Assembly (NCBI GenBank): GCA_026388655.1
Contig: JAPLJI010000187.1
Location: forward strand, 1 to 53,299
Direction: 5' to 3'
DNA length: 53,299 nucleotides
Source of the DNA: Pseudomonadota bacterium
GTDB taxonomy: Bacteria > Desulfobacterota > JAPLJL01
Numbering within the stretch: position 1 is the stretch's first letter; every line of letters begins with the position of its first letter. The position numbers and the translations under genes are program-made. Shown here in pieces: positions 5,797-27,925 of the stretch. The notes below the pieces were generated by a model. That model was not told the DNA's origin, searched no databases, and worked only from the letters and a program-made list of their open reading frames with translations.

Positions 5797-6531
5797 TTAT
5801 TTTTGAAAAGAGCGCAATTCAAGTTGGCCGGAAGCCCACCTCAGATAGCTCCGCGATCCCATCCAATCCCCCGGGTTGGCATAGAACCCGGACCGGTTCT
5901 TATCCGTGAGCGCCAGGATCTCGGCCTGATGGGAATGGGCCAGAATAATAAAATCAAACCCTTCCCGGATTTTCCCCCGGGCGAAGTCGATGAAGACCGG
6001 GCGGAGAGGATTTTCCTCGGGGAGATAATGGTGCTGGCGGCTTAACCCGGCCAGGCGGAAGGCGATTTTCCAGACCAGACCGGGGGGGAGATTGTTGGCC
6101 AGAAAAAGAATGAGCCGGTTGTGCAGGATAAAACGCAGCAGACGGCAACCCAGATCGGAGGGAGTAAGGGTGTCACCGTGGGCGAGAAAAAATTTTTTTT
6201 CGTCAAGGTGAATTTCGGCCGGGTTCGGATAAATCCTGAGGTTGGCTACCTGAGTTCGCAGGGAATCCAAAAAAAAATCATGATTTCCTTCAATGTAGTT
6301 TATTCTCCACCCCCGGGTGCTTAATTTCCGGAAGGCTTCAATTACCGGCCCGTATTCGTAAAGCGCGACCAAATTTTCCCCGATCCAGAATTCAAAAAGA
6401 TCCCCGAGAATGAAAATGGATTCTGGTTCCGGGGTTCCCCGGCTCAGGGCCTGCAGGAATTCGACCAATTTGGATTGGTTGGGATCCTGTCTTCCGGTCA
6501 GGTGGGCATCGGCAATGAATAAGCTACTCAT
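5797..6531 (-). CDS. lpxH: UDP-2,3-diacylglucosamine diphosphatase-like metallophosphatase (LpxH)
   Basis: A 244-residue calcineurin-like phosphoesterase. LpxH removes UMP from UDP-2,3-diacylglucosamine to give lipid X in lipid A synthesis, at the inner face of the cytoplasmic membrane. The metal-site motifs appear in order: IADAHL (residue 6), GDLFEFWIG (~43), EGNHDFF (~80), AHGD (~117) and AHSH (~198). The FEFWIG segment after GDL and the hydrophobic insertion around NRLILFLANNLPP, which mediates membrane association in LpxH, favour this over a generic phosphatase. It is divergent from the gene at 6664. No other lipid A genes are in the window, so assignment rests on sequence alone. Confidence 0.82.
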   Translation of the reverse strand: MSSLFIADAHLTGRQDPNQSKLVEFLQALSRGTPEPESIFILGDLFEFWIGENLVALYEYGPVIEAFRKLSTRGWRINYIEGNHDFFLDSLRTQVANLRIYPNPAEIHLDEKKFFLAHGDTLTPSDLGCRLLRFILHNRLILFLANNLPPGLVWKIAFRLAGLSRQHHYLPEENPLRPVFIDFARGKIREGFDFIILAHSHQAEILALTDKNRSGFYANPGDWMGSRSYLRWASGQLELRSFQK

Positions 6532-6581: not shown

Positions 6582-6608
6582 TTGACAACTATAGGGTTTG
6601 GTGATAAT
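6582..6608 (+). promoter_or_regulatory. candidate sigma-70 promoter upstream of the 6.6-14 kb operon
   Basis: TTGACA at 6582-6587 and GATAAT at 6603-6608 are separated by 15 nt, shorter than ideal. It faces the unknown protein at 6664, the first gene of the MCP-like operon. The leader would be ~50 nt and contains AAGGGG at 6628-6633. Confidence 0.35.
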
Positions 6609-6663: not shown

Positions 6664-7314
6664 ATGTTTGAGATTGATAAGACCCAGCTTTTTATTCCGG
6701 TAAAGCCGGAAGAGATGGTTGAGGTTTGCTACTCGGTCAACACCATCCTGGTGGCTCCCGCGGATCACTCGGCGGAATCGACTAAAGCATATATTGTCTC
6801 AGCCCGCAAAGGTTCCGCCTTTATCTTTTACATTTTTCTTTTTCTCATCAATTCGGGCCGGGGGGTTATCTATCGCCGGGATGATGAAATGGTCGAGCAG
6901 AAGGATTACTCCAAGGTTTTGGACGAGGCCTTCATGTTTCTCGAAAGCATGGGTTTCATCATGGATCGGGTGGATCTTCGTTCCCTCTCCCTGGACGAAC
7001 GGAAGGAATATGTCCAGCAGCAGCCATTTTTCCCTGCGCCGGTGGAAGAAACCCCGCAGGAATTGACCGAGGAGGTCCTGGAGGAGGAGGCCAAGGTCTC
7101 TTCCTCCCGGCCGGAAGAAAAACCCGGGGTGCGACCGGTCGCGGAGGCCCGGGGTTCGAATCGGGCCAGAGCGGTGGTTCCGGACCAGGGTAAAGTCTCC
7201 TCCGACTCCGGGGGAATTCCGGATTCGGAGAAGGGGAAACAAACCGCGCCGGCCCCGGCCCAGGATGCGGCTCCGGCCCTTAACCTCTGGGGGAGGATTC
7301 TTGCGTCTTTCTAG
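6664..7314 (+). CDS. protein of unknown function with acidic C-terminal tail
   Basis: I do not recognise this 216-residue protein. Residues 1-~115 look folded and alpha/beta, with a hydrophobic stretch (AFIFYIFLFLI, ~58-68) too short to be a confident membrane helix. Residues ~120-205 are rich in Glu, Pro, Ser and Ala and are probably disordered. The last ten residues are hydrophobic (LWGRILASF). There is no signal peptide, so a cytoplasmic place is likely. Its stop overlaps the start region of the TPR lipoprotein, so it belongs to the operon with the TPR, RodZ-like and MCP-like genes. It could be an adaptor or output protein of that set, but this is inference from position only. Confidence 0.65.
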   Translation: MFEIDKTQLFIPVKPEEMVEVCYSVNTILVAPADHSAESTKAYIVSARKGSAFIFYIFLFLINSGRGVIYRRDDEMVEQKDYSKVLDEAFMFLESMGFIMDRVDLRSLSLDERKEYVQQQPFFPAPVEETPQELTEEVLEEEAKVSSSRPEEKPGVRPVAEARGSNRARAVVPDQGKVSSDSGGIPDSEKGKQTAPAPAQDAAPALNLWGRILASF

Positions 7315-8074
7315 ATGGGGGATAATCCTGGGGGCGATTCTCTGGGGCCTGGGGGGATGCGCGACCGACAAGGAAATCAAGAAAGGCGACCAGTCCCAGG
7401 TTCATTTTCAATTGGGGGTTTCCTACCTCAATGAGGGAGATGCGACCCGGGCTCTGGGCGAGCTTTTAAAAGCGCGGGAATTCGCGCCCGATGACGCGGA
7501 AATTTTAAACGCCCTCGGGCTGGCTTATTTTTCCAAGGGCAGCCGGGAAGAGGCGATTGCTTCGTTTCAGAAAGCGATTAAATGTAGGGCGGATTTCTCG
7601 GAAGCCTGCAATAACATGGGCGTGGTTTACCTGGACCAGGGCGAATGGGACAAGGCCATAACCTGTTTCGAGAAAGCCCTGAAAAATTTACTTTACCAAA
7701 CCCCCGAACGGGCCCGGGTGAATCTGGGATGGGCTTTTTTCAAGAAGAAGGATTATTCCCAGGCGATCGGAGAATTCAAACAGGCCCTGGTGGAATCTCC
7801 CCGCTTTTGCCTGGCGCACAATTACCTGGGCCAGGCTTACATGGAAACCAGCAAATACGAGGATGCCATATTCGAGTTCCGGTTAACCAATAAATACTGC
7901 CCGCAGTATGTGGAGGTTTTCTTGAATTTAGGGCTTGCTTACATCAAAACCGGCCGGGCGCAGGAGGCCTGTATAAATTTCAATCGCGCTCAACAACTGG
8001 GGGGAGAGGGAGAAATCGCCCGAACCGCCGCTCGATATCTTAAATTGCTTAAGTGCAGCCCGAGCGATAAGTAG
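7301..8074 (+). CDS. TPR lipoprotein, Tgl/PilF(PilW)-like
   Basis: A 257-residue lipoprotein with about six tetratricopeptide repeats (e.g. AEILNALGLAYFSKGSREEA, ACNNMGVVYLDQGEWDKAI). The N-terminus is hydrophobic and ends in a lipobox LGGC. The TTG at 7301 is chosen because GGGAGGA lies just upstream (7291-7297) and it puts the lipobox ~20 residues in; an ATG at 7265 would lie deep in the previous gene. Layout and repeat type match the Tgl/PilF family of pilotins, which help assemble the type IV pilus secretin in the outer membrane. No pilus genes are in the window, so a different partner is possible. It overlaps the preceding gene by 14 nt. Confidence 0.8.
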   Translation: MRLSRWGIILGAILWGLGGCATDKEIKKGDQSQVHFQLGVSYLNEGDATRALGELLKAREFAPDDAEILNALGLAYFSKGSREEAIASFQKAIKCRADFSEACNNMGVVYLDQGEWDKAITCFEKALKNLLYQTPERARVNLGWAFFKKKDYSQAIGEFKQALVESPRFCLAHNYLGQAYMETSKYEDAIFEFRLTNKYCPQYVEVFLNLGLAYIKTGRAQEACINFNRAQQLGGEGEIARTAARYLKLLKCSPSDK

Positions 8075-8112
8075 CTCGGATGTCTTCGGCCCCCGGGTGG
8101 GGGAGAGAAATA

Positions 8113-8907
8113 ATGGCAGAAAAACCTGAGAGCTTTGGAGAATTTCTCCGCCGGGAAAGGGAAGCCCGGGGAATCAGCCGGGAAGAACTTTGCCGGGTGA
8201 CCAGGATTTCCAAGTTCATCCTGGACGCTCTGGAAACCGATGATTACCGGTTCCTGCCCCAGGAAACTTTTGTCCGGGGATACCTCCGCAATTACGCCCG
8301 CGAATTAAACCTTCCCCTGGAAGAGATCATGCGCCGGTTTGAGCAATTCCGGTCGGGAATCAAGCCGCCCGAAAAGAAGGCGGCGGAGGATAAAAAAAAG
8401 CCCGAAGCGGCGGCCGGTTCCCTGTGGATCCGCCTGGGAATAGCCGGGTTGGTGCTGCTCCTGGGAGGGGGGGCTATTTTCTCCTGGCTTTCCGGGAGGG
8501 AAAAACCGGCGGCGGCGGTGAAAAGCGGGGGCGGGGTGGAGGAGATCACCGCGCCTCTGGCGGTGAGCTACCCGGCGGAAACGGAAACCTTCCCCCCCGG
8601 CTCGTCCGCCGCGGTAAACCCGGCCCCGGGTCCCGGGGTTCCGCCGTTGGACGGGGCGGAGGTACCATTGATTTTTTTATCCCGGGAAGAGGTCTGGGTT
8701 AAATTCAGCATTGACGGAGGAGAGGCCCAGGAAGTCCTGCTGCGACCGGGAGAAACCTACAAAATCAAAGGCCAACAAAATTTTGACTTGTTGATTGGAA
8801 ATGCCGGAGGAATAGAACTGATCTTTAACGGAAAACCTCTCCCCGCCCTGGGTTCCTCCGGAAGGGTAGTCCATCTGCGGCTGCCCGTTCCCAATCCCGA
8901 AGGATAA
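8113..8907 (+). CDS. RodZ-like helix-turn-helix membrane protein
   Basis: A 264-residue protein with the RodZ layout: cytoplasmic HTH domain (residues ~7-78, FGEFLRREREARGISREEL), charged linker, one membrane helix (~104-128), a Pro/Ala-rich periplasmic linker, and a C-terminal beta domain of the DUF4115 type (~190-260, VWVKFSIDGGE). RodZ links MreB to the elongation machinery; shorter relatives act in other envelope complexes. I chose the ATG at 8113 rather than an in-frame ATG at 8080 that lies 5 nt after the TPR gene, because the HTH begins there. It sits between a pilotin-like lipoprotein and two MCP-like proteins, so it may act with them rather than with MreB, none of whose partners is nearby. 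Confidence 0.82.
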   Translation: MAEKPESFGEFLRREREARGISREELCRVTRISKFILDALETDDYRFLPQETFVRGYLRNYARELNLPLEEIMRRFEQFRSGIKPPEKKAAEDKKKPEAAAGSLWIRLGIAGLVLLLGGGAIFSWLSGREKPAAAVKSGGGVEEITAPLAVSYPAETETFPPGSSAAVNPAPGPGVPPLDGAEVPLIFLSREEVWVKFSIDGGEAQEVLLRPGETYKIKGQQNFDLLIGNAGGIELIFNGKPLPALGSSGRVVHLRLPVPNPEG

Positions 8908-8910
8908 TCG

Positions 8911-11400
8911 GTGAATTTACGAACGCGCGTTAATCTTCTGGAAACCCTGATCGTTTCCACCGGTCTTTTCCTGGTTTTTTTACTGACCTACTACCTGATT
9001 TCGTTCTCCAAATCGGAGATTGAAATCTCGATTATCATCACCATTCTGACCATGGTGGTGTTTGTTTGGCCGGTGCGCCTGGTGCTCAAGCGCATCTGGC
9101 TCAAACCCTTGCTCGAGCGGGATTTCTCGGAAATGGGCCCGGAACAAAAACTTCAGGCGATTTCCGCCGCGCACCGGTTACCCTTCCTTTCGGCCCTGGC
9201 TTCGCTCCTGGGATGGTATGTTTCGGGAGCACTGGCGGCCTTCTTCATCTGGATTTTCTCCGGGATGGAACCAATCAAAATCGGAATATTTTACGGGGCC
9301 GTTATCACCGGGGGAACCACCGCGGCTCTTTATCAGTTTTACCTGACCAAGCGGGCGCTCCAACCTTTGCTGGAGAAATGGCTGGGTTCAGAAATCGAGA
9401 TTACTGAAGCCGACCCGGATTTTATCCGGGCCGGGATCCGGTCCAAATTTTTATTTACTTTCTCTCTTTTTGTCGGGGTTTTTCTTTGTTTTTCGGCGGT
9501 CTGTCTTTTATATATTTCCCGAGATATCGCGAGAAAAAATTTTAATCAGCTGGCCAAGAAAGAACTTTATCGCCTCTCCACCCAGCTGGAGGAAATCAAC
9601 ACCCAGGGAGCGGGGGTGGAAGAGGAGCTGACAAAGTTTCTGGAGCAGGCGAAGCTCTCGGAATTGGCCCGGTTGCGGATCGTGGATGCGCAGGGCCTGG
9701 TCCGGGGAGGGACGGGGAAGAAATCTTTAACTCCTCCGCCCGATTTCCTGATCCTGAGGGTTCCCCTTTCCCATGGAAACTTTCTGCTCGAAGGGGCGTT
9801 CATTCCCAGATTCTCGGCGGGAGCCTCCGGAGGGGTTTTACCCCTGGTGGTTCTGGTCGGGGGGATTTTATTCATCACCATCATTTGCGCCTTTTTCGCA
9901 GCGCAGGACGTATCCCGGCCGATTTCCCGGCTGGGGAAGGTCATAAAATCCGCGGCCCGGGGTGATTTCCGGAGCTATCCCCTTCCGATCACTGAAGACG
10001 AGGTGGGGGTTCTCTCCGACGGTCTGGGAGGAATGCTGCGGGATCTGGGCCGGATGACCCGAAAAATTAATTATACCTATCAGGAGATTCAGAAGGTAAA
10101 CCAGGAGATTTTTTCTTCGGTTAAGGAGATCTCCCTCCGCGCGGAGTTGCAGGCCACCTCTCTGGAACGAGGAATTTCCGCCGCGGAAGAGATGAGCAGA
10201 ACGGTGGCGGAGACGACCAACAATACCCGGATCCTCTCCGAAGCCGGGGAAAATATTTCCAAATATACCGGGGACTTGAAGCTGAAGATCAACGAGGTGT
10301 CGCCCCGGGCGGATTTGCTTTTCCAGGTTATCGAAGAGGCAGACGGGACCATCCGGAAACTGAACGAGGCCGTCGGAGGTCTGGCGGGCGAGGTCAATCA
10401 ACTGGTCGGAGAAGCCGAGGGGGTGACCCAGAGGATTTTATCCATCCAGCAATCCGCCCGGACGGTGAAGAATCAGGCCCGGGAGGCGGTGGAGAATGCC
10501 CAGACCATCTCCGGGATGGCCGGCCAGGTGTCGAAGACCGCCCAGAATACCGGAGAAACCATGACCCAGATCAAAAAACTGGCGGATCTGGATTCGGAGC
10601 AGGTTGGCAGCCTGAAGGATCGGGCCGAGGATATCGGGGGGATCCTCACCGTTATTGACGAGGTGGCGGAGGATACCCGGCTGCTCTCGCTCAACGCCGC
10701 GATTATCGCGGTTCAGGCCCGGGAGGAAGGAAGAGGCTTCGCCGTGGTGGCGGGGGGAATCCGCGAACTGGCCGAGCAGACCCGCACCTCGATTGCGAAC
10801 GTGACCGATCTCATCCGGGCGGTCCAGATGCAGGGGCTGGAGGCGGTGGAAGCGATCAAGACGGGGGCCGGACACGCCCACTCGGGGGTGGAGGTTGCGC
10901 AGGGGGTCAAGGAGAAGATCCAGGAGATGGACGAGGTGCTGACCCAGCTCAAGGACGCGATGCTTCTGATCGACCGGGTGATCAGCGACTGGGTGGAAGG
11001 GGTCAACCGGGTGGTGGCCAGCTTGCAGGGCTTCGCAGCCGAGGCCGGGGAGGTTTCCCGGGTGGGCCATGAACAGAGCCGGATCAGTACCGAGGTGGTG
11101 ACGAATTTCGAAGAGGTTAGAAAATTCAGTATCCTGATCAAAAAAACCATGACCGAGTTGGCCCAGGGGAGCGCGATGATCAAGAAGGCGACGGAGAACA
11201 TCGACCAGATGGCGCGGGAATTTGAGCGGGTCAGCATTTCCCGCCGGGAGAGCACCGAAAAAATTGTCCGGGGGATGCGGGAGATCCAGGTCGGGGCCGA
11301 CGCCAATCGCATGCGTTCCCGGGAATTGGAAAAGGTGATCGCCTTTCTGGGAATTCAAGCGGACCGCTTGCAAGGCGAGGTGGAGAAATTCCGCTGGTAA
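8911..11400 (+). CDS. MCP-like membrane protein with altered signalling tip (paralogue 1)
   Basis: An 829-residue protein with a GTG start 3 nt after the RodZ-like gene. About six membrane helices are visible: four in residues ~12-142, one at ~180-203 and one at ~310-333. A ~100-residue outer loop precedes the last one. A HAMP-like domain (~334-382) leads into a long coiled coil with the MCP hairpin. The tip is recognisable (LSLNAAI at ~593-599, EEGRGFAVVAG at ~605-615), but the residue matching Tsr Glu385 is Ile599, Arg388 is Gln602, Phe373 is Glu587 and Asn376 is Arg590. These positions shape receptor trimers and CheA/CheW contact, so normal chemotaxis signalling is doubtful. No che genes are seen nearby. 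Confidence 0.85.
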   Translation: MNLRTRVNLLETLIVSTGLFLVFLLTYYLISFSKSEIEISIIITILTMVVFVWPVRLVLKRIWLKPLLERDFSEMGPEQKLQAISAAHRLPFLSALASLLGWYVSGALAAFFIWIFSGMEPIKIGIFYGAVITGGTTAALYQFYLTKRALQPLLEKWLGSEIEITEADPDFIRAGIRSKFLFTFSLFVGVFLCFSAVCLLYISRDIARKNFNQLAKKELYRLSTQLEEINTQGAGVEEELTKFLEQAKLSELARLRIVDAQGLVRGGTGKKSLTPPPDFLILRVPLSHGNFLLEGAFIPRFSAGASGGVLPLVVLVGGILFITIICAFFAAQDVSRPISRLGKVIKSAARGDFRSYPLPITEDEVGVLSDGLGGMLRDLGRMTRKINYTYQEIQKVNQEIFSSVKEISLRAELQATSLERGISAAEEMSRTVAETTNNTRILSEAGENISKYTGDLKLKINEVSPRADLLFQVIEEADGTIRKLNEAVGGLAGEVNQLVGEAEGVTQRILSIQQSARTVKNQAREAVENAQTISGMAGQVSKTAQNTGETMTQIKKLADLDSEQVGSLKDRAEDIGGILTVIDEVAEDTRLLSLNAAIIAVQAREEGRGFAVVAGGIRELAEQTRTSIANVTDLIRAVQMQGLEAVEAIKTGAGHAHSGVEVAQGVKEKIQEMDEVLTQLKDAMLLIDRVISDWVEGVNRVVASLQGFAAEAGEVSRVGHEQSRISTEVVTNFEEVRKFSILIKKTMTELAQGSAMIKKATENIDQMAREFERVSISRRESTEKIVRGMREIQVGADANRMRSRELEKVIAFLGIQADRLQGEVEKFRW

Positions 11401-11412
11401 TTTTACACGACG

Positions 11413-14121
11413 ATGCCGTTTGAGTGGCTTTTAAAGCGGGGGGGAGGAAAAAAAGTCTGGGCGGTCCGGAGCCGGATCATCCTGGCTTTTTCCGCCGCGT
11501 CCATTTTTCTGGGGATATTCTTTCCCTGCATTTTTCTCGTGGCGACTTCTCCCGCGATTTCCCTGTACCAGGTGGTGGGGGCCCCCCAGTATCTGCTGCC
11601 GGTGGTAATGTTCACTTTCCTCGTGCAGGTGATCGGGAACGAGTACTGGCTTAGGCGGATCTTCCTTTTGCTCCGGGAGCGGGAGGAAGGCCGGGAAACC
11701 CCGCCGGAGCAAATCCCGGCCGTCGTCCGGGACGCTCTGGCTTTTCCTCTCCGCGGGTCGCTGCTGGGTTTCTGGCTCTGGGTTTTCTCGGCCATAGTTT
11801 TCCCCCTGCTCGGGATCTTCTACCTGCATCTGACCTACGTTCAGGCGGTGGTCATCGGGGCCACGGTTTTGTGCACCGGGATGGCCACGTTCCTGCTGAA
11901 TTTCTATTTTTTCAAAATCATTCTTTCCCGGGTTTTGGAAGAGGCGGTCCCGGTGGGGAGCCTGCCGGCCCGCGGTTTCCAAAAAATATATTTCCCCATC
12001 CGCCTGAAGCTGATGTTCAGTTTTCTGATCCTCCTGGTCGTGGGTCTTTCCCTGCTCGCCCTGCTGGTTTCCACCTACACCATCCGGACCTTAAAAGGGC
12101 AAACCGCCTGGTTTGGCTTGGCCCGGCTGCAGGAGATCGGTGCGGATTGGAAAACGGGTTTCCCTCCGGATGACGGCCTGACCGGGTTTTCCCCCCAGGA
12201 GCGTTTGGCCTGGCTCCATGCGCGGTCAAAACAGATTGGAACCCGGATGATTTTTCTGGATCTCGGCCGGAAGGAGATCCTGGGAGGAGAAAAGAAAGAA
12301 TATTCCCAGCTGGCCTTGGCCGTTAATCCCGGGAAACAGGAGAAACAGTCGCGGTTTTTCCTTTGGGCCCAGCGAATCGACTTTCTCAATCTTCTGGACC
12401 GGGTGCGGGCCGTACTGGAGCGGAACGAAGAAGGGATAATTTACGACTACGGGCCCGGTGATTTGCTGCTTTATCAGCAGATCACGGAGGGCCGGTATTT
12501 GCTGGTGCGGTATCCCCTTTCCACCTTTCACCAGGAGATGACTTGGATTTTCAAATTTATCCTGGCCATTTTTTGTCTGGGGCTGGTGCTTTCCCTGGGG
12601 ATTTCCCGGCTTTCCGCGGAAGACATTTCCCTGCCTTTCCAGAAAATCCTGCAGGCTTCCACGCGCATTTCCGCCGGGGATTTACGGGAGCGGATCCGGA
12701 TCCCGCTGGGCGATGAAATCGGGGACCTGGCCAGCAATTTCCAGAGAATGACCCGGGGATTAAGGGGGATCGTTCAAGAAATCGACGTGGCCTCCCGGGA
12801 TGTCCAGGCGGGGATTTCGGAAATCATCCGGACCGGAGACCAGGTCGGCCAGGTCCTGGAAAAACAGGTGCTGGCGATCCAGTCCATCCAAGCCTCGGCC
12901 CACACGATCATGGAAACCCTCCGGGGATTGGAAAAGATGGTTTCGCAATTTTCCGCGCTGGCCCAGGAGTCATCCTCCTCGATTTTCGAGATGGATTCCA
13001 GCAACCGCGAGGTATTCCATAACCTGAGGGAAATGTCGGGAGCGGTGGAAAACGTCTGGGGTTCCTTGAAGGAAATCGAGCGGCTGATCGCCCAGAGCCA
13101 GAGCTCGGCCGGGCGGATGTCGGAGACTTTCAATTCGGTTTTCGACTCGGCCCGGAATTTCTCCGGGAGCAGCACGCAAATCCTGGAGAAGGCGCGGGAA
13201 TCAGCCGGGCTGGCCCGGGAGGTTTCCGAACGCGGCCGGAAAGCCAAGGCCCAGGTTCGCGCGGCGGTTCGCGGGGCGGAAAAGATCCGGGATTCGGCCG
13301 CCCACGGAATCGAGACCTATCGAAATTTATCCGGAAGCATCGAAAAGATTGCCGGGGTAGTGAAACTGATCAACGGGGTGGCGGAACGGACCAATCTCCT
13401 GGGTTTGAATGCCAGCATCATCGCGGTCGGTTCGGTGGAGTACGAAAGGAGTTTCACGGTGGTAGCGGAAGAGATCAAGGAATTGGCGGACCGGGTTACC
13501 AATTCCACCCAGGAGGTCTCGGGCCTGATTAAATCCCTGCAACAGATCTCGGGCTCTTCCCAGCATGCCTCCGTCCAGTCCCGGGAGAAAATCGAAGAAG
13601 AACTGGCTTGCCTGGATTCGGCCGAGCAATGGCTGATCGAGATCGGAAAGCAGGCGGAGAAGATTGCCGCGGTGGCGCAGGCAATCGAATCGGCCCTCGG
13701 TGATCAGACCGGAGGCCCGGGGGAAGCGGTGCGGGTGGATTTGGTCCCCATTCAAAGCCGGCTGGCGGGGATCGGGACGAACCTGGAAAAGGTCGGGGTC
13801 GAAGAAATCCTCGGTCACGCGCAGAGGATGGAGGAAGTGGTGTCCGAACTCAAGCGCATCGCCGAAAGCCAGGCGGAGAGCAGCCGGATGATAAAACTGG
13901 GAGTGGAAGAGATAACCCAGATGATCAAATACTTCCAAAATATTATTAAGGAGGAGATCGAGAAAGCCGGAAAAATGGTCGGCCTGGTCGAGGAGATCCG
14001 GGAATCAACCGTACAATCGCTGGCGGAAACTAACCGGGTAGTGGGCTCGGGGAAAAACCTGGACGGATTAATCCGGGAATTGGGAACCGAGTTGGGGAGA
14101 TTCCGTTTGAATCCTGATTAA
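11413..14121 (+). CDS. MCP-like membrane protein with strongly altered signalling tip (paralogue 2)
   Basis: A 902-residue paralogue of the preceding protein with the same layout: an N-terminal block of four membrane helices, a fifth near residue 195, an outer loop with charged segments, a sixth near 380, then HAMP and a very long coiled coil. The tip is more eroded. NASIIAV (~666-672) keeps the Asn, but Ile670 replaces the hallmark Glu and Gly673 replaces the Arg; the GRGF motif is ERSF (678-681). Paralogue 1 shares the Glu-to-Ile and Phe-to-Glu changes, which points to a common specialised function rather than random decay. It begins 12 nt after paralogue 1. Function unknown; perhaps a mechanical or envelope sensor. 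Confidence 0.83.
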   Translation: MPFEWLLKRGGGKKVWAVRSRIILAFSAASIFLGIFFPCIFLVATSPAISLYQVVGAPQYLLPVVMFTFLVQVIGNEYWLRRIFLLLREREEGRETPPEQIPAVVRDALAFPLRGSLLGFWLWVFSAIVFPLLGIFYLHLTYVQAVVIGATVLCTGMATFLLNFYFFKIILSRVLEEAVPVGSLPARGFQKIYFPIRLKLMFSFLILLVVGLSLLALLVSTYTIRTLKGQTAWFGLARLQEIGADWKTGFPPDDGLTGFSPQERLAWLHARSKQIGTRMIFLDLGRKEILGGEKKEYSQLALAVNPGKQEKQSRFFLWAQRIDFLNLLDRVRAVLERNEEGIIYDYGPGDLLLYQQITEGRYLLVRYPLSTFHQEMTWIFKFILAIFCLGLVLSLGISRLSAEDISLPFQKILQASTRISAGDLRERIRIPLGDEIGDLASNFQRMTRGLRGIVQEIDVASRDVQAGISEIIRTGDQVGQVLEKQVLAIQSIQASAHTIMETLRGLEKMVSQFSALAQESSSSIFEMDSSNREVFHNLREMSGAVENVWGSLKEIERLIAQSQSSAGRMSETFNSVFDSARNFSGSSTQILEKARESAGLAREVSERGRKAKAQVRAAVRGAEKIRDSAAHGIETYRNLSGSIEKIAGVVKLINGVAERTNLLGLNASIIAVGSVEYERSFTVVAEEIKELADRVTNSTQEVSGLIKSLQQISGSSQHASVQSREKIEEELACLDSAEQWLIEIGKQAEKIAAVAQAIESALGDQTGGPGEAVRVDLVPIQSRLAGIGTNLEKVGVEEILGHAQRMEEVVSELKRIAESQAESSRMIKLGVEEITQMIKYFQNIIKEEIEKAGKMVGLVEEIRESTVQSLAETNRVVGSGKNLDGLIRELGTELGRFRLNPD

Positions 14122-14188
14122 TATATTATAGTTAAATGAGAATTAAGCGGGATGAGTAATTGTTAAGCATAACTTTTTCTTGATTTTT

Positions 14189-14194
14189 TATAAT
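14189..14194 (+). promoter_or_regulatory. possible -10 element upstream of recO
   Basis: A perfect TATAAT at 14189-14194 lies in an AT-rich gap after the MCP-like operon, 15 nt before the chosen recO start. No good -35 is seen at the right spacing, and the leader would be very short, so this is tentative. Confidence 0.25.
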
Positions 14195-14209
14195 CGAGAT
14201 GAGAAGATA

Positions 14210-14962
14210 GTGAAAATTACCCCGGCTTTGGTGTTAAAATCGGTACCTTGGCAGGAAACCGATCGGGTAATTACCATGTTTACCCCTGAATATGGGAAAA
14301 TCAGGGGGATCGCCCGGGGCGGGTCCAGGAGCCGGAAAAGGTTTGGCGCGGGGCTGGATCCCCTTACATATGTGCAGATGCATTTCCGTTCCTGGGAAAA
14401 CCAGGATTTGATCAGGCTGGAATTCTGCGAGCCGATTGAATCCTTTCACTTGATCCGTAACGAGGTGCTCCGGTTTGGGACGGGTTTTTATTTCACGGAA
14501 ATCATCAGCGGGTTGTTTCCGGAACGGGAAGCCAACCCGGAGGCCTTCGCGCTTTTGCTCTGGGGATTGCAGAGGCTGGAATCGGGAGATCATCCCGACG
14601 GTCTGGCTCGGAAATTTGAGATAAAAGCGATCGGAGCGGCGGGATACCATCCCAAATCCGGGTCCTGTCGATCCTGCGGGAAGGAAAGCGGGGGAAAAGG
14701 GAATTTTCGTTTTTTAATGGAAGCGGGAGAAATCCTCTGCCCGGGTTGCTATAATGGTTCTTCCGGGCAGGTAATCACGGGGGAAAGCCTGGCCATCCTG
14801 AATCGCGTGCCCAGCCTGGGCTGGGAAGGATTGAACCGGCTGAGAATTTCTCCCCCGGTAATTGAGGAACTCAGGGGGATTATTTCCAATTATATCCGTT
14901 ACCATATCGGAGGAGAGTTCCGGTCGAAGCATTTTCTCGAATCAATTCGACAGGGAGGTTGA
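14210..14962 (+). CDS. recO: DNA repair protein RecO
   Basis: A 250-residue RecO, which with RecF/RecR loads RecA onto SSB-coated single-stranded DNA. The N-terminal OB fold shows ALVLKSVPWQETDRVITMFT and the conserved GKIRGIARG. The helical domain follows, and a zinc-binding pair CRSC ... CPGC lies near residues 155-183. I chose the GTG at 14210 because RecO proteins begin a few residues before the ALVLK strand; a TTG at 14180 would add ten residues. It ends just before the giant repeat protein starts and is probably not functionally tied to its neighbours. Confidence 0.9.
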   Translation: MKITPALVLKSVPWQETDRVITMFTPEYGKIRGIARGGSRSRKRFGAGLDPLTYVQMHFRSWENQDLIRLEFCEPIESFHLIRNEVLRFGTGFYFTEIISGLFPEREANPEAFALLLWGLQRLESGDHPDGLARKFEIKAIGAAGYHPKSGSCRSCGKESGGKGNFRFLMEAGEILCPGCYNGSSGQVITGESLAILNRVPSLGWEGLNRLRISPPVIEELRGIISNYIRYHIGGEFRSKHFLESIRQGG

Positions 14963-14967
14963 AGGGC

Positions 14968-17883
14968 ATGATTAATTCCGGGGAATATAAACGGTTTTTT
15001 ACGGGGGTGATTTTAACGGGCTGGGTGCTGCTTTTTCTCCTGGCTCGCGGGGCCGGAGCCGCCTCGTATCCGGGCGGGGTGACCGGGGCCCAACCGGGAT
15101 GGAAGGAGGCGAAACCGGCCTATCCGCTGGCGGCCTCGCTGACCGGGGGAACCGGGATGCTCAGGCTTTTAAGCCCGATTACCCCGCCCAAGGGCAGCGC
15201 TTCCGTCGGGGCCTATACCCGTTTTTTCATTAGCAGCGGTTTAATCCAGGGCTATAACAGCCGGAGGCTGGAAGGCACGGGGGTGTTCACTTACTCAATC
15301 ACCGATTATCTGGAAACCGCCGTCGTCACCACCGGATCCGGCCAGCAGATTGAAAACCGGGAGATCCAGCCTCATCAATCCTACCTGGCCCAGACGATGG
15401 GGGATTTCGATCTTTCCGTCAAGGCCGGTTACGCCGCCGATCCGGCGCTGAGCATCGGGGCGGAAGCCCGGATGCGGATCTCTACCCAGGTGAATGACAT
15501 CGGAATGCTGGGAGACAGCCTCAGCGGCGGCGGTCGTTTCTTGTTCTCCTTCGATTTTTCCGAGGTTCAATACGAAAAAGTCAAGCGGTTTCCGCTCCGG
15601 CTGCTGTTTAACCTGGGGTATTTCTACGACCGGTCCTATAACCTGGCTCCTGCGGCGCAAAATCAAACCGCCCAGCAGCAGGCCCAGTTCAGCCAGGCGG
15701 CTTTTAACTACGCCCTGGGGATCGGGACGGGCGGATATCTCGGCTGGGGCCTGGGGGTGGAGTTTCCGCAGAAATATTTCACCCCGTTTCTTGAATATTA
15801 TGACGAGCTGATTTATGATCGCGAAACCAAAAAATTCAGATCGTTCACCCAGAGCCCCCAGCGGATTACCCCGGGCGTCCGGCTCAACCTCCTGGAAAAT
15901 CTCGGGATCATCGTGGGGGTGGATATTTCCGTGGGCATGAACAAAGCGTATACCTATTCCTTCCGCCGGACGGTCGAAGACATCGCCGCCCAGCCCGCGC
16001 CCAGCTGGGCGGCGATTGTAGGAATCAATTATCAATTTGGAGCAAGGGATAAATGCCCCGGGTTAGGAATCATCACTGGAAGGATTTCTGATGTTGAGAA
16101 CAAACTTCCCTTGGAAAATGCCCAAATAGTTTTCCCGGAAGGAGCGGCTTCATCGATAATCACTAACAACGAAGGAAGATACCGCACTTACCAACCCGAA
16201 GGTATCATAAAACTTTCCGCAACCAAATCTGGGTATTTCGATCAATCGGGCATGGCTTTGATTACGCGCTGTAAAGAAATGGAATTAAATTTTGAACTCA
16301 AGACGATTAGCAAAGCCGGTGTCATTACTGGCCGGGTAATTGACAAGACTAATACCCCGTTGGCAGCGGTAGTAACAATTTCAAGTGCTGTTCCCGGACC
16401 CGTGGCTCCGAAGCGGGAAATCAAGAAAGAAGAGGGGGTCGCGCCCCGAGCGGCAACCGCTCCCGTGGTTCCGCCTCCGGCCCGGCCGGGAATGGCTCCT
16501 CTTCCGACTGCTCCCGCACCGGCACTGACTCCCTTGCCTCCGGCTTCGATTGCTCCCCTGCCTTTAGCCCCGAAACCCGAAACGGAAGGGGGGGTTGCTC
16601 CCAAGGCGGTGACGACTCCGATCGCCCAACCGGTAGTTAAACCAAATGTACCCGCTGCCCCCACTCCACCTGCGGCCAAGCCCAAGGCCAAACCTGTCAC
16701 CAAACCGCGAGCCCTGCTTCCTGGAGGGAAGAACATGTCAAATCTGCTCGGCCAGGTTTTACCCCCCTCCGCCGCCCTGCGGGTGGGAAGGATAATCACC
16801 GGAATACTCCTGGTCGGAGCCTTGGAAGGCGGCCAGGTAGTGGCGCAGGAAGTCAAACCCCCGGCCCCGGCCCCCGCCCAGGCGGAGAAAGCTCCGGCGG
16901 TACCGGACCAGGGTAATCTCTCCGGGGTGATAACCAGTGAAGAGGGCCAGGGACTCCCGGCGAAAATCACTTTTGACGATCCGAACATATCGGGGGTAAT
17001 GGCGGATTCCAAGACCGGGAAATACCGGGTGGAATTGGCCCCGGGCAGCTATAAAATCAAGGTCGAAGCCGGCGGCTATGAAACGGCGGAAAAGAAGGTG
17101 AACATCAAGGCCGGGGAAACCACTCAGGTCGAGCTCAAGCTGAAATCCCTGGCCAAGAAAAAGGAAAAAACCGAAGCTCCCCCGGAGAAAGGGATTCTGC
17201 TCGGGACGGTGACGGATCCGACCGGGAAGGCGCTCTCGGCCACGATCAGTTTTGAAGATTCCCAGATCCCGGCGATCAAAGCGGATTCCAAGACCGGGAA
17301 ATACCGGGTGGAACTGGCTCCGGACAGGTACAAAATCAAGGTTGAGGCCCAGGGTTATGAACCGGCCGACAAGAAGGTTAAGGTCAAGGTTGGGGAAGAG
17401 ACGGCGGAGGATTTTCAACTGAAGCAGCTGGCCCCGGCCCCGGTGGTGGAGAAGGGGGTGTTGACTGGTTTGGTTACGAATGAGGCGAAGAAGGGGTTGC
17501 CGGCGGTGATTCATTTTGAGGATCCGGCGGTGCCGGAGATTAAGGTTGATCCGAAGACAGGTGGTTATTATCGGACGGAGATTGCACCGGGCAAATATAA
17601 GTTGACGGTGATGATGCAGGGTTATGTTCAGGTGGAGAGTAAGGTAGGGGTTCGGGCAAAAGAGGAGACGCGGGCGGATTTCCAGTTGAAGGCGGCAGTG
17701 GCGGCTCCGGGGAAGGGAGCTTTATTGGGGACTATAACTGACGCGGCGGGGAAAGCGCTCCCTGCGGTGGTCACTTTCGACGATCCGCAGATTCCGGCGC
17801 TCAAGACGGATCCCAAGACGGGGAAATACCGGGGAGAGCTGGCTCCGGGCAAGTACAAAATCAAGGTCGAGGCCCAGGGTTAA
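14968..17883 (+). CDS. outer-membrane barrel plus carboxypeptidase-regulatory-like repeat protein, 5' part of a gene broken by an in-frame stop
   Basis: The first 971 residues of what would be a 1684-residue protein. It has a signal peptide (M at 14968 behind AGGGAGG), a barrel-like region rich in alternating aromatic strands (~30-360), and two carboxypeptidase-regulatory-like units (~365-470). A Pro/Ala-rich linker (~475-645) follows, then four ~87-residue repeats. Each repeat has the pattern GxVTDxxGKxLxAxxxFDD ... KTGKYRxELAPGxYKIKVEAxGY. Translation ends at TAA 17881-17883 inside the fourth repeat. The matching codon in the second repeat is TAT, with identical flanking sequence, so this is a single T-to-A change. 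The same frame continues to an OmpA domain at 20022. It may be a pseudogene, a sequencing error, or a truncated surface protein. Confidence 0.8.
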   Translation: MINSGEYKRFFTGVILTGWVLLFLLARGAGAASYPGGVTGAQPGWKEAKPAYPLAASLTGGTGMLRLLSPITPPKGSASVGAYTRFFISSGLIQGYNSRRLEGTGVFTYSITDYLETAVVTTGSGQQIENREIQPHQSYLAQTMGDFDLSVKAGYAADPALSIGAEARMRISTQVNDIGMLGDSLSGGGRFLFSFDFSEVQYEKVKRFPLRLLFNLGYFYDRSYNLAPAAQNQTAQQQAQFSQAAFNYALGIGTGGYLGWGLGVEFPQKYFTPFLEYYDELIYDRETKKFRSFTQSPQRITPGVRLNLLENLGIIVGVDISVGMNKAYTYSFRRTVEDIAAQPAPSWAAIVGINYQFGARDKCPGLGIITGRISDVENKLPLENAQIVFPEGAASSIITNNEGRYRTYQPEGIIKLSATKSGYFDQSGMALITRCKEMELNFELKTISKAGVITGRVIDKTNTPLAAVVTISSAVPGPVAPKREIKKEEGVAPRAATAPVVPPPARPGMAPLPTAPAPALTPLPPASIAPLPLAPKPETEGGVAPKAVTTPIAQPVVKPNVPAAPTPPAAKPKAKPVTKPRALLPGGKNMSNLLGQVLPPSAALRVGRIITGILLVGALEGGQVVAQEVKPPAPAPAQAEKAPAVPDQGNLSGVITSEEGQGLPAKITFDDPNISGVMADSKTGKYRVELAPGSYKIKVEAGGYETAEKKVNIKAGETTQVELKLKSLAKKKEKTEAPPEKGILLGTVTDPTGKALSATISFEDSQIPAIKADSKTGKYRVELAPDRYKIKVEAQGYEPADKKVKVKVGEETAEDFQLKQLAPAPVVEKGVLTGLVTNEAKKGLPAVIHFEDPAVPEIKVDPKTGGYYRTEIAPGKYKLTVMMQGYVQVESKVGVRAKEETRADFQLKAAVAAPGKGALLGTITDAAGKALPAVVTFDDPQIPALKTDPKTGKYRGELAPGKYKIKVEAQG
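16723..16737 (+). promoter_or_regulatory. internal Shine-Dalgarno and ATG inside the barrel/repeat gene
   Basis: GGAGGG at 16723-16728 sits 6 nt before an in-frame ATG at 16735. The residues after it look like a signal peptide: a short n-region, then RVGRIITGILLVGAL and VVAQE as a possible cleavage site. A second, shorter secreted repeat protein could start here, or it may be a relic of a gene fusion. Confidence 0.4.
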
Positions 17884-18990
17884 GAACCGGCCGACAAGAA
17901 GGTTAAGGTCAAGGTCGAGGAAGAGACGGCGGAGGATTTTCAACTGAAGTCGCTAGCTCCGGCCGCTCCCGAGAAGGCGATTTTGACCGGGACGGTGACG
18001 GATGAGTCGGGAAAGATGCTGGCGGCCACGATCAGTTTTGACGATCCGCAGATCCCGGCCCTGAAGACGGATCCCAAGACGGGGAAATACCGGGGAGAGG
18101 TGAAGGTTGGGAGTTATAAGGTGACGGTGTCGGCGGCGGGTTATCAGGCGGGGCAGGGTCAGGTTAAAGTTGATTTGAAGCTTGTAGAGGTGGCCAAGGA
18201 GTTTCCGAAGCCGGCGACAGTTCCGGTGGTAGCTCCGGTGATAGCGAAGGGGGTTTTGCTGGGGACGGTGACGGACGCGACGGGGAAGATCTTAGCGGCG
18301 ACGGTTAGTTTTGATGATCCGCGGGTGCCGGCGCTGAAGGCGGATCCGAAGACGGGTAAGTATCGGGGCGAGGTAGCTCTCGGCAAGTATAAGATTAAGG
18401 TTGAAGCGGTGGGTTATCGTTTGGTGGAGGGGAAGGTTGAGGTTAAAGCGAAGGAGGAGGCGCAGGCGGATTTCCAATTGAAGTTAGAGATTCCGGCGGA
18501 CAAGGGGTTTTTGGTGGGTTTGGTGACGGATGAAACGGGAAAGGCTTTGTCGGCGGTGATTCGATTTGATGATTCGACGGTGCCGGAAATCAAGACGGAT
18601 GTGAAGACAGGTGGGTATCGGAGGGAGATTGCGCCGGGCAAGTATAAGGTGACGGTTTTAGCGAAGGATTATGAGGTTTTTGAGGATAAAGTCAGGGTTA
18701 AGGGGGGAGAAGAGACTCTGGCGGATTTTAAGCTTAAATTGGCTCCGGTTTTAGCGAAGGGGGTTTTGCTGGGGACGGTGACGGACGCGACGGGGAAGGT
18801 CTTAGCGGCGACGGTTAGTTTTGACGATCCGCAGGTGCCGGCGCTGAAGACGGATCCGAAGACGGGTAAGTATCGGGGCGAGGTGGCTCCGGGCAAGTAT
18901 AAGGTTAAGGTTGCGGCCGCGGGCTATGAGCTGGCGGAGCAGAAAGTAAAGGTGGAAAAGAGAGAGGAGACACAGGTTGATTTTCAGTTA
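16911..18990 (+). repeat. eight tandem ~87-residue (about 260-bp) carboxypeptidase-regulatory-like coding repeats
   Basis: Units begin near 16911, 17188, 17452, 17713, 17971, 18247, 18505 and 18748. Each opens with a G-x-(L/I)-x-G-x-(V/I)-T motif and contains a KTGKYR-like turn and an APGKYK-like turn. Units 2 and 4, and units 6 and 8, share long identical DNA blocks, a sign of recent duplication or gene conversion. Three more divergent partial units follow to ~19660. Confidence 0.85.
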
Positions 18991-20022
18991 AAGATGACGG
19001 TGGCGTTGGTTTCGGGGCCGAAACCGGCACCGGTAAAGCCTCCCCAGGCGGAAAAGCTTGAGAGGGTAGTCTTGGCTACCGATCCTGCCAGCGGAGAGTT
19101 TATCCGGACTTTGCCGGCCGGGAGGTACCGAGTTGAGGTCGAGGCGGCTGGCTTTGTCAAACAGGCTCGGAATGTTCTGATCGCGGAGGAACGGGAAACA
19201 CATTTGGAAATAGTATTGGAACCAATAAAACCGCCGTTAGGGACGTTGCTGGGTTCCGTAAAAATGGAAAAGGAAAAAACCCCTCTGGCGGCGATTATTA
19301 ATTTTGATCAGCCCAAGATTCCTAATCTTGCCACTGATCCTGCCAGCGGCAATTTTATGGGTAGTTTACCACCAGGGATTTATCAAGCTACTGCCTTTTC
19401 TCAAGGTTTCTTGCCCCAGACGAAACAGGTGGAAATTAAAATGGGGGAAGATACACGGGTTGATTTTCTTCTCTCCCCCACCGAGGTTCAGGTTGAACTC
19501 GGTGATCTTCGGGATCCGGAAAATGGCAAGTATTTCCTAAAACTTCCGCCGGGAAATTACTCGGTTAAAGCGGCAGCGTCCAATTTTAAATCGCAAACCA
19601 AGAACGGCATTATTGTGGCCAACAAGGTTACCGAGCTGAATTTCGTTCTCGAACCGTTACAACTGGTGCGTTTGACGAAAAAGAAAATCCAAATTTTGGA
19701 GAAGATTCATTTCGAATACGACAAATCGGATATCCTCGCCGACTCGTTTCCTATCTTAGACGAGGTGGCCCAAGTGCTCGGGGATAATCCGACGATCAAA
19801 CTTACTATTGAAGGGCATACCGATATTATGGGTTCACATGAATACAATATGAAACTTTCTCAAGCACGGGTTGACTCGGTGCGGAATTATTTGATTTCCA
19901 AGGGGATAAATCAGGACCGGCTGCTCGCCGTCGGTTATGGCGCAACCCGGCCGATCGCGGATAATGCCACCGCCCTGGGGAGGGCCATGAATAGGAGAGT
20001 AGAATTTGTAATCCAGGAATAG
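17983..20022 (+). CDS. repeat and OmpA C-terminal part of the broken barrel/repeat gene
   Basis: This frame is in phase with the upstream fragment and follows the TAA at 17881 without a frameshift. It holds four more full repeats (to ~18990), three divergent ones (~19060-19660), and a C-terminal OmpA peptidoglycan-binding domain. The domain shows KIHFEYDKSDI, EGHTDIMGSHEYNMKLSQAR and NRRVEFVI. The OmpA domain anchors outer-membrane proteins to peptidoglycan. A TTG at 17983 is the first usable start but has no ribosome site and no signal peptide, so independent expression in the periplasm is unlikely. This part probably works only if the stop is not real, is suppressed, or if the internal start at 16735 restores export (that start also meets the stop). 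A terminator follows. Confidence 0.75.
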   Translation: MTGTVTDESGKMLAATISFDDPQIPALKTDPKTGKYRGEVKVGSYKVTVSAAGYQAGQGQVKVDLKLVEVAKEFPKPATVPVVAPVIAKGVLLGTVTDATGKILAATVSFDDPRVPALKADPKTGKYRGEVALGKYKIKVEAVGYRLVEGKVEVKAKEEAQADFQLKLEIPADKGFLVGLVTDETGKALSAVIRFDDSTVPEIKTDVKTGGYRREIAPGKYKVTVLAKDYEVFEDKVRVKGGEETLADFKLKLAPVLAKGVLLGTVTDATGKVLAATVSFDDPQVPALKTDPKTGKYRGEVAPGKYKVKVAAAGYELAEQKVKVEKREETQVDFQLKMTVALVSGPKPAPVKPPQAEKLERVVLATDPASGEFIRTLPAGRYRVEVEAAGFVKQARNVLIAEERETHLEIVLEPIKPPLGTLLGSVKMEKEKTPLAAIINFDQPKIPNLATDPASGNFMGSLPPGIYQATAFSQGFLPQTKQVEIKMGEDTRVDFLLSPTEVQVELGDLRDPENGKYFLKLPPGNYSVKAAASNFKSQTKNGIIVANKVTELNFVLEPLQLVRLTKKKIQILEKIHFEYDKSDILADSFPILDEVAQVLGDNPTIKLTIEGHTDIMGSHEYNMKLSQARVDSVRNYLISKGINQDRLLAVGYGATRPIADNATALGRAMNRRVEFVIQE

Positions 20023-20144: not shown

Positions 20145-20864
20145 ATGAAGAAGGCAACATTGCTTTTCGGATTGATCCTGTGGGCGGGATTATGGTCATG
20201 GTCCTGCCTGAGCGGGGTCAAGGGTGATCTTCATCCCGCGAAGGCCCCGGGGCCCACCCGCCCGACCGGGAGTTCCGCCCCGACCGCCCCGGAAAATCTG
20301 ACCGGGACTATCAAAACCGCAACCTCGAAATTCGCTTCCCGGGCCCAGGTGGAGGAAGCCATCGCCCAGGCTCAGATCCAGATCGGCGGGATCGGGCAGG
20401 AACTGGTTTTGCTGGAAACCTACCTTTACCTCATGCGCGATGGGTTGATGAAGGAAAAAAGGGTAGGAGCGCTGGCCCGGATCCGGTGGGAATATGGCTA
20501 CAACCCCATTATCAACATTGAGGCGGTTCAGGTCCGGCTCGATGAAGAACTGGTGGTGGATCGCCAGGATAAAGAAGATAGACTGGACCGGCAGAAAGAG
20601 CTGGATTTATTTCAGGCCGCGGTCGTTCCGGGAGAGCACCAGGTAACCGCGCTGGTTTCGGTCCGGGGACGAAAGCGGGGGTGGTTCAATTATTTCCAGA
20701 AGTACCAGATCGAACTCAAGCTGACCCGGAAACTTTCCTTCCCGGAGGGAAAAATTTCGCTCGTGAGCCTTTCTCTCCTCGACCGGGGTGGCCGGTTCGA
20801 GCTTTCGGAAAGACTAAAACTGGATCTCCGGCTCGAAACCCGGGAGGTCGGGAGCAGGCCATGA
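20145..20864 (+). CDS. secreted protein of unknown function
   Basis: A 239-residue protein with a hydrophobic N-terminus that ends in WSWSC. This could be a weak lipobox, but the residues before the Cys are atypical. A Pro/Thr-rich linker (~30-60) precedes a helical stretch and a beta-rich C-terminal half with paired strands (GEHQVTALVSVRGRK, KYQIELKLTRKL). I do not recognise the family. Its TGA overlaps the ATG of the next gene, so the two are translationally coupled and probably act together. They sit between the OmpA-repeat gene and the polysaccharide export block, which suggests an envelope role. Confidence 0.65.
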   Translation: MKKATLLFGLILWAGLWSWSCLSGVKGDLHPAKAPGPTRPTGSSAPTAPENLTGTIKTATSKFASRAQVEEAIAQAQIQIGGIGQELVLLETYLYLMRDGLMKEKRVGALARIRWEYGYNPIINIEAVQVRLDEELVVDRQDKEDRLDRQKELDLFQAAVVPGEHQVTALVSVRGRKRGWFNYFQKYQIELKLTRKLSFPEGKISLVSLSLLDRGGRFELSERLKLDLRLETREVGSRP

Positions 20865-23065: not shown

Positions 23066-23269
23066 CCCGGAAATTAAGTAGTTGGTGATCATCCGGGGGT
23101 AATCAGGGTAATAACCCCTCTTGCCCGATTACCTACTGTTATATCATCAGGAAAGCGGAAGGTATGGTTATAGTATGGGTGGCTTTCCGATAGTTAAATA
23201 GTTAAAATATAAATTTAGGTCGAAGTTATGAGACCGGGTCCAAAATTACAAGAATGGAGGAGGGGTAAT
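23066..23269 (+). promoter_or_regulatory. structured leader upstream of the polysaccharide export block
   Basis: A 204-bp gap with several helices. AGTAG (23077-23081) can pair with CTACT (23133-23137). Inside it GTAATC plus GGG (23099-23108) pairs with CCC plus GATTAC (23124-23132). A separate hairpin, GGAAAGC (23150-23156) with GCTTTCC (23182-23188), follows, then an AT-rich stretch (23189-23220) that could hold a promoter. AGGAGGGG lies before the ATG. No known riboswitch consensus was recognised. Confidence 0.4.
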
Positions 23270-23836
23270 ATGGGAAAAAAAGTGGCAGGTAAAGCGGGCC
23301 AAACGGTCTTATTTGCCTGTTTTTTAATTATATTAACAGCCCGGCTGGGATATCTCTCCGCGGCCGGGGAGACCACCCCGAACCTGACGGCGGAAGAGAA
23401 GGGAAGCATGCTTCTGACCGTGGATCAAGCCTACAACAATATAGCCGAGGTTAAAAAATTCATCGAGGGCCTGGCGGAAAAAGCCAAGGAAAAAAACGAC
23501 CTGGTGGCGAAAGATTGTCTGAACCCGCTTTATAACCAGGCCCGGGACAACATCGGCAACGCCAATAGCCTGAAAGTTGAAGCGAAACAGGGGATTATCG
23601 CCAACGATTCGGCTCGGGCGGGGAATGGGATTAAAAATTTGGTGATTCTCCAGGAACAGTATAAAAAATGGTTCGAAGAGGCTCTCACTTGTCTTTCCCT
23701 GGAAGGGAGCAAGAAAGACTGGAAAGAGGAGGTAGTCAGGTTGATCGCACCCCTGGTAACCTTTGACGAGAAAGAGCTTCTCGCTCTTCCCGAGCCGAGC
23801 CTGGAACCGAAACCCTGGCTTTCTATCTATAGATAA
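23270..23836 (+). CDS. secreted helical protein of unknown function
   Basis: A 188-residue protein starting at the ATG behind AGGAGGGG (an upstream in-frame ATG at 23228 has no such site). It has a signal peptide (VLFACFLIILTARLGYLSAAG) and then mostly alpha-helical, charged sequence with two Cys residues (in AKDCLNP and LTCLS) that could form a disulphide. The last ~30 residues are Pro/Leu-rich. It is the first gene of the export block, 3 nt before the barrel gene, so it probably acts in the periplasm with it. The family is not recognised. Confidence 0.65.
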   Translation: MGKKVAGKAGQTVLFACFLIILTARLGYLSAAGETTPNLTAEEKGSMLLTVDQAYNNIAEVKKFIEGLAEKAKEKNDLVAKDCLNPLYNQARDNIGNANSLKVEAKQGIIANDSARAGNGIKNLVILQEQYKKWFEEALTCLSLEGSKKDWKEEVVRLIAPLVTFDEKELLALPEPSLEPKPWLSIYR

Positions 23837-23839
23837 ACC

Positions 23840-27874: not shown

Positions 27875-27925
27875 TTTTTCTTTTTCCTAATTATTATTAT
27901 TTATTTCGGACTGATCAGCCCAAAA

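Follow-up and report, generated by a model that had tools for sequence, protein, structure and literature searches.

In Escherichia coli, the gene of the MreB adaptor RodZ is found in the order ndk-rlmN-rodZ-ispG-hisS, and in Pseudomonas, pilF presumably sits between rlmN and rodZ. PilF, PilW and Tgl, the pilotins of type IVa pili, are lipoproteins with six tetratricopeptide repeats (TPRs) and an extra helix. Chemoreceptors (methyl-accepting chemotaxis proteins, MCPs) of the Che and Pil-Chp types, of which we take PilJ to be a Pil-Chp example, are built from a transmembrane segment, an outer loop, another transmembrane segment, optionally HAMP, and an MCP hairpin, with pilus-related neighbour genes. 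We analysed a locus encoding relatives of all three in contig JAPLJI010000187.1 of a Pseudomonadota bacterium (GenBank assembly GCA_026388655.1), the whole 53,299 nucleotides (nt) of which are referred to as the window.

The locus is centred on a trio of genes for a protein with an acidic linker ('acid'), a TPR lipoprotein and RodZ. Around this trio, ndk, rlmN, a pilF-type gene, rodZ and hisS of the E. coli-type locus recur in related genomes, whereas MTAP, PfkB, acid, MCP genes, recO and a PEGA/OmpA gene are inserted. The core, a PilF-type pilotin with RodZ, is known in kind; the acid family and a pair of chemoreceptor-like proteins are new. We put at about even the chance that this is a pilus/envelope-assembly operon on an ancestral pilotin-rodZ locus to which the receptor pair was added. 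A literature search pairing RodZ with Tgl, pilF or pilW returned no description of such an operon, and the searches made turned up no described system that has this set of genes. The original prediction for this DNA had also known of no named system, a view that holds for the set and not for its core, a relative of rlmN-rodZ-ispG-hisS.

A conserved block of seven genes

The original prediction proposed a unit of five tightly packed genes ending at 14121, for an unknown acidic-tailed protein, a Tgl/PilF-like lipoprotein, a RodZ-like helix-turn-helix membrane protein and two noncanonical MCP-like proteins. All five open reading frames were confirmed, head to tail on the + strand, with junctions of -50 (acid/TPR), +5 (TPR/RodZ), +3 (RodZ/MCP1) and +12 nt (MCP1/MCP2). 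The series continues with recO (+58 nt after MCP2) and the PEGA/OmpA gene (-4 nt from recO), and the conserved unit is acid–TPR–RodZ–MCP1–MCP2–RecO–PEGA/OmpA, 6664–20022, which places the proposed right-hand boundary two genes too early. Its features are as follows, where G000 is the genome of the window and other G and L numbers denote comparison genomes and loci.

6664..7314, + strand: acid gene, with an N-terminal domain of ~122 amino acids (aa), a variable linker and a conserved C-terminal tip
6664..7044, + strand: acid N-terminal domain, predicted order b-b-b-b-b-b-a-b-a
7285..7311, + strand: acid C-terminal tip LWGRILASF-COOH, conserved in the family
7265..8074, + strand: TPR lipoprotein, taken as a PilF/PilW/Tgl-type pilotin; lipobox Cys32 (codon 7358-7360); 50-nt overlap with acid at its start
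8080..8907, + strand: RodZ; HTH_25 at 8146-8325, one transmembrane segment (residues ~110-139), RodZ_C at 8683-8877
8911..11400, + strand: MCP1; N-terminal module with multiple transmembrane segments, ~105-aa outer loop, transmembrane segment, long coiled-coil hairpin
10687-10752, + strand: MCP1 hairpin tip, SLNAAIIAVQAREEGRGFAVVA
11413..14121, + strand: MCP2; N-terminal module with multiple transmembrane segments, larger outer loop, HAMP, long coiled-coil hairpin
13402-13467, + strand: MCP2 hairpin tip, GLNASIIAVGSVEYERSFTVVA
14180..14962, + strand: recO (TIGR00613, 149 bits), at the same position in G002 and G395
14959..20022, + strand: outer-membrane protein with PEGA/carboxypeptidase-regulatory repeats and a C-terminal OmpA domain

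In G002, a genome of the same genus, all seven genes were found in the same order with 56-78% identity. At locus L068 (JALSQH010000195, metagenome-assembled genome G395), the order was rlmN-MTAP-PfkB-acid-TPR-RodZ-MCP1-MCP2-RecO-PEGA/OmpA, with 21-40% identity to the genes of the window, and at L067 (G396) the same order continued as far as MCP1, where the contig ends. Because G395 and G396 belong to another phylum, of which they are the sole two representatives in the comparison set, the block spans two phyla, and because gene order outside the block differs between the window and G395, the conserved unit is confined to these seven genes. G032 (CP070770, 'Deltaproteobacteria bacterium bin23') encoded acid-TPR-RodZ-MCP with a single MCP. 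The predicted association thus withstood a search for its conservation outside the strain.

An acid profile matched 22 of 395 genomes of the window's phylum, which, to judge from how its relatives are named, is probably Desulfobacterota. A separate scan of named contigs detected six acid loci with a 4-sequence alignment, the 26-sequence alignment being too diverse for this purpose; with MCP1 as the query, the contig scan returned zero relatives. For single-domain acid homologues in other genomes, the TPR gene was immediately 3' on the same strand in 20/20 cases, covering at least seven families and two phyla, and RodZ came next in 11 of these 20. Since the homologues had been found independently, this adjacency is not due to chance. 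The converse fails, in that the TPR gene was detected in 99 of 198 phylum genomes (E <= 1e-42), nearly always as a single match, and acid-less genomes with PfkB-TPR-RodZ or MTAP-PfkB-TPR-RodZ were found (L140, L149 and L150). TPR-RodZ preceded by rlmN-MTAP-PfkB probably came first. Because acid-less relatives retain MTAP-PfkB-pilF-rodZ, we regard pilF-rodZ as the core and acid and the MCPs as additions, where acid is probably an insertion that then stayed with the TPR gene and the MCPs were probably inserted after RodZ in a few lineages. The acid-TPR-RodZ trio is more widespread than the five-gene set and occurs without MCPs, so that the five genes are not the minimum unit, nor, given that RecO and PEGA/OmpA belong to it, the maximum. 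Their distribution is independent in part, with the MCPs restricted to some lineages and acid and TPR staying together. In two Desulfuromonadales-type loci (L053 2219-2737 and L061 5525-6043), the slot after RodZ, which the MCPs fill in the window, is taken by a response regulator (RR) that has an MJ0042-like zinc ribbon at its N terminus. The trio is also present in L069, from a metagenome-assembled genome.

This gene order could also be a relic of rlmN-pilF-rodZ-hisS, in which acid, the MCPs, recO and PEGA/OmpA would merely be co-transcribed and share no mechanism, an explanation that we regard as rather unlikely. The order retained in E. coli speaks for it, as do L053, with ndk-rlmN-MTAP-PfkB-acid-TPR-RodZ-RR-PNP, loci L047 and L049, where hisS adjoins the trio, and the presence of recO, a housekeeping gene without evident function in the envelope. 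The genes ndk, rlmN and hisS were named by eye in the relatives; rlmN accompanies the trio in L053, L067 and L068, and in the window itself neither rlmN nor hisS is adjacent to it. A relic is harder to reconcile with acid and TPR staying together despite wholly different flanks, including a position beside pilMNOPQ, or with the MCP pair and PEGA/OmpA keeping their position across two phyla despite identities of 21-28%.

The candidate pilotin, RodZ and the acid family

The TPR protein carries the lipobox LGGC32, an outer-membrane lipoprotein signal, and its best NCBIfam matches were Tgl (160.6 bits, cut-off 225) and PilW (116.2 bits, cut-off 154). Its predicted structure (predicted local distance difference test, pLDDT, 95.5) has 13 helices, six TPRs and a 13th helix, and Tgl likewise consists of six TPRs plus helix 13 (PMC10653833). 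The model superposed end to end on PilW 2vq2 with template-modelling (TM) scores of 0.82/0.87 and a root-mean-square deviation of 2.2, and matched PilF 2ho1/2fi7 with TM scores of 0.80/0.85; among the listed PDB matches, these structures combined the highest scores normalised by both lengths. The Tgl model was matched by all 12 family members tested, and that of PilW by 11. In G000, the gene is single-copy by the family profile and is the best PilW match (108 bits; the runner-up scored 74). Two genera of family f13 carry acid-TPR-GGDEF immediately 5' of a pil cluster (pilM-N-O-P-Q in L007, and from pilM on in L046), and the secretin of the f13 pilMNOPQ cluster carries an AMIN domain. Based on the predicted 13-helix fold, the superposition on PilW and PilF, the Tgl and PilW model matches and the f13 context, the protein is classed as a pilotin of the PilF type, and not as a certified Tgl or PilW, and the predicted Tgl/PilF-like lipoprotein can stand in this form. 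It differs from the described pilotins in that its gene is preceded by acid. The f13 regions (L007 3008-13695 and L046 7863-16701), with acid-TPR-GAF/GGDEF 5' of pilM-N-O-P-Q, represent a pilus cluster that also encodes a diguanylate cyclase.

RodZ was detected by HTH_25 (72.2 bits, cut-off 24.6) and RodZ_C (55.1 bits, cut-off 23.9), with a layout of cytosolic HTH_25, a single transmembrane segment and periplasmic RodZ_C, as predicted for the RodZ-like protein; translation may in fact begin at a second in-frame ATG (8113). The best PDB match was 2wus_R, the MreB-bound RodZ, and the alignment placed F64 and Y68 at Tm Y53 and Y57, both aromatics being kept at positions that we take to be MreB contacts. 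It was the sole G000 protein seen with the HTH_25 and RodZ_C pairing, the other strong HTH_25 genes in the relatives encoding fusions of DnaJ and HTH or, in one case, a short protein with HTH alone, and MreB was present in 9/9 genomes tested. Given these domains, the 2wus match, the contact aromatics, the unique pairing and the presence of MreB, the gene is most simply interpreted as the genome's own RodZ. Domain layout, contact aromatics, single copy and MreB in the genome are all common to it and described RodZ, and the difference is in the genes downstream, MCPs and recO instead of ispG-hisS. The protein scored below two NCBIfam RodZ equivalog cut-offs, models that represent other lineages, and RodZ_C was undetected by Pfam in the RodZ of several relatives. 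A DnaJ-domain protein fused to a RodZ-type HTH_25 was found beside a ParA/MinD-like ATPase in G032 (C1:2734809, L111), G068 (L112) and G395 (L109).

An operon serving RodZ/MreB wall growth, in which the TPR protein would be an envelope scaffold rather than a pilotin and the MCPs would report the state of the wall or envelope, appears improbable to us. The unique RodZ, its retained contact residues, the ubiquity of MreB in the genomes tested and the peptidoglycan-binding OmpA domain within the same block all fit such a role, and it is disfavoured by the match of the TPR protein to PilW/PilF over its whole length and by f13, where acid-TPR lacks an adjacent RodZ, yet adjoins pilMNOPQ.

For acid, no sequence match was found in Pfam, NCBIfam or PDB, and Pfam searches of 26 family members returned nothing at E <= 1. 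The N-terminal domain was predicted with a pLDDT of 92.8 and a predicted TM score of 0.87, and a fold search with it gave no match at E <= 0.001 in PDB (best TMq ~0.3) or among the viral folds of BFVD (0.44). The predicted fold is therefore possibly new, where 'new fold' means only that PDB holds no match. The protein is predicted to be cytosolic, being without a signal peptide or transmembrane segment. Linker length ranges between about 28 and 196 residues across the family, and the Asp/Glu content of the linker is 20-41% in some lineages and 7-21% in others. The constant parts are the N-terminal domain and the C-terminal tip, so that, for the unknown acidic-tailed protein of the original prediction, the lack of Pfam and NCBIfam matches fits and the acidic character did not hold for the family. 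The tip is conserved in 18 of 21 proteins, typically as [RK]xLxx with F, I, L or M as the last residue (IRFLASI, VKLLISL, GRFLAAM, GRLLAML and LLFLAGF are variants), while the three f46 proteins carry RFLSKF internally and continue with a basic extension. To judge from the sequences, the domain-linker-tip layout resembles that of a tethered docking peptide. As a family beside the TPR lipoprotein gene, acid is a new component of the locus. In four genomes (families f47, f25 and f104), the acid domain was found at both ends of a long coiled coil and not beside a TPR gene, in proteins of 646-853 aa (L048 8025-10586, L058 7863-10415, L062 8061-10319 and L054 7175-9115); the domain thus appears to be reused in a second, coiled-coil architecture.

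The receptor pair and the flanks of the block

MCP1 and MCP2 were detected by MCPsignal with 88.3 and 85.1 bits (cut-off 34.6), and their tips are non-canonical, as had been predicted: NAAIIAVQARE and NASIIAVGSVE against canonical NAAIEAARAGE, with E at the F373 position. We assume that the altered residues are F373, E385 and R388 in Tsr numbering. The C-terminal hairpin arm had 233-237 residues in all full-length copies, with 234 in MCP1 and 236 in MCP2 against 234 in the Che-cluster receptor of G000. Thus, the MCP signalling domain and hairpin length are common to Che-coupled receptors and this pair, and the tip differs. Compared with Pil-Chp/Che receptors, the operon includes no CheA or CheW, and its receptors have an extra N-terminal transmembrane module, ~33 heptads in the C-terminal arm and the altered tip. 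What appears new at this locus, from sequence comparison, is two chemoreceptors with altered hairpin tips and unchanged hairpin length.

The E-to-I, R-to-Q tip was present in 11 of 118 phylum genomes, with the canonical tip in 44 of 118, and also in the Che-cluster receptor of G000. Therefore, we rejected the II..Q tip as sole evidence for lost CheA coupling, which does not follow from a tip shared with a Che-linked receptor; the further loss of AG in MCP1 and MCP2 makes uncoupling possible. The Che cluster of G000 (L092, contig C153, 3312-15226) is complete and encodes CheA, two CheW, the II..Q-tip receptor, a zinc-ribbon protein, a HEAT-like protein, CheR and CheB, and a similar-looking cluster is present in G395 (L096). 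A dedicated surface- or pilus-sensing receptor complex in which MCP1 and MCP2 act without CheA, near the original suggestion, is very unlikely, since its support, namely tips without the E and R of NAAIEAARAG and their further decay in MCP1/MCP2 (G replaced by R, AG by SV) and in the G395 receptors, is countered by the same tip subclass and hairpin length inside the CheA-CheW-CheW-MCP-CheR-CheB cluster of G000, its recurrence in the phylum and the fact that a tip alone does not prove CheA independence.

The upstream neighbour of the block is a divergent LpxH-like phosphoesterase gene (5797-6531), separated from acid by a 132-nt spacer that contains one further feature.

6582..6608, + strand: putative, weak sigma-70-like promoter TTGACA-15 nt-GATAAT, noted by eye 55 nt before the acid start codon

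The promoter scan requires a 16-18 nt spacer, and this pair is outside that range. Promoter-like sites in the window showed no excess over shuffles and terminator-like sites were somewhat in excess (36 vs 24 expected); neither is of use for operon boundaries. The 58-nt gap between MCP2 and recO contains TATAAT, and recO may have its own promoter. The PEGA/OmpA gene has one in-frame TAA (17881-17883) inside a repeat, and was uninterrupted in G395 and open in the portion visible in G002; the TAA is either a recent nonsense change or an assembly or sequencing error. A clear break was first seen after 20022. Further 3', genes at 20681-29986 resemble an exopolysaccharide-export locus (export-like protein at 25080, chain-length-determinant-like protein at 25691 and membrane protein at 27926) and lie outside the block shared with G395. 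Scanning the window for Rfam families and tRNAs produced zero hits.

A proposed pilus/envelope-assembly operon with an added receptor pair

Several observations weigh against a pilus/envelope-assembly operon. The TPR protein is below both curated equivalog cut-offs, Tgl and PilW, scores that fit the poor sequence conservation of pilotins (PMC10653833). In the window's genome, pilMNOPQ is on another contig than the operon (a pilM-N-O-P-Q run was seen by eye in contig C185), so that the pilus link rests on family f13 and the fold. PilM (7/7 genomes tested) and MreB are common, and their presence discriminates poorly. Long branches kept a tree of 12 receptors from settling the cross-phylum orthology of MCP1 and MCP2, which gene position favours, as does the N-terminal part in the case of MCP2, and the G032 MCP was nearer to a G000 paralogue (C28) than to MCP1. 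Finally, pilotin and RodZ may be neighbours only as a relic of ancestral gene order, with no function in common.

If the operon does serve pilus/envelope assembly, the TPR lipoprotein at the outer membrane would, by homology and fold, be the pilotin of PilQ, the secretin of the type IVa pilus, and RodZ the cell's MreB adaptor. We hypothesize that acid is a new cytosolic accessory factor of this pair, the globular domain of which would reach a partner via the flexible linker and the hydrophobic/basic C-terminal tip. It would probably assist in positioning or switching either the pilus machine or the elongation machinery. In some lineages, MCP1 and MCP2 would have been added 3' of rodZ as two diverged, long chemoreceptors that are expressed together, and would most likely signal the state of the envelope or pilus either to the Che system of the genome, the receptor of which shares their tip subclass and hairpin length, or within the complex. 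At the same site, PEGA/OmpA would anchor the outer membrane to the peptidoglycan. The components do span the outer membrane, periplasm, inner membrane and cytoplasm, as originally predicted, and the proposed sensing of envelope load, pilus state or contact was too strong, a guess.

As a tentative proposal, which we judge less probable than not, acid would be an undescribed, possibly new-fold factor dedicated to a PilF-type pilotin, the tip of which couples pilus/secretin assembly to RodZ-MreB and, in some lineages, to an envelope-reporting receptor pair. The placement and timing of pilus secretins relative to cell-wall growth are open in most bacteria, and acid is a testable candidate for this link, while the lineage-specific receptor pair offers an entry to chemoreceptors that have perhaps been repurposed for envelope or pilus control.

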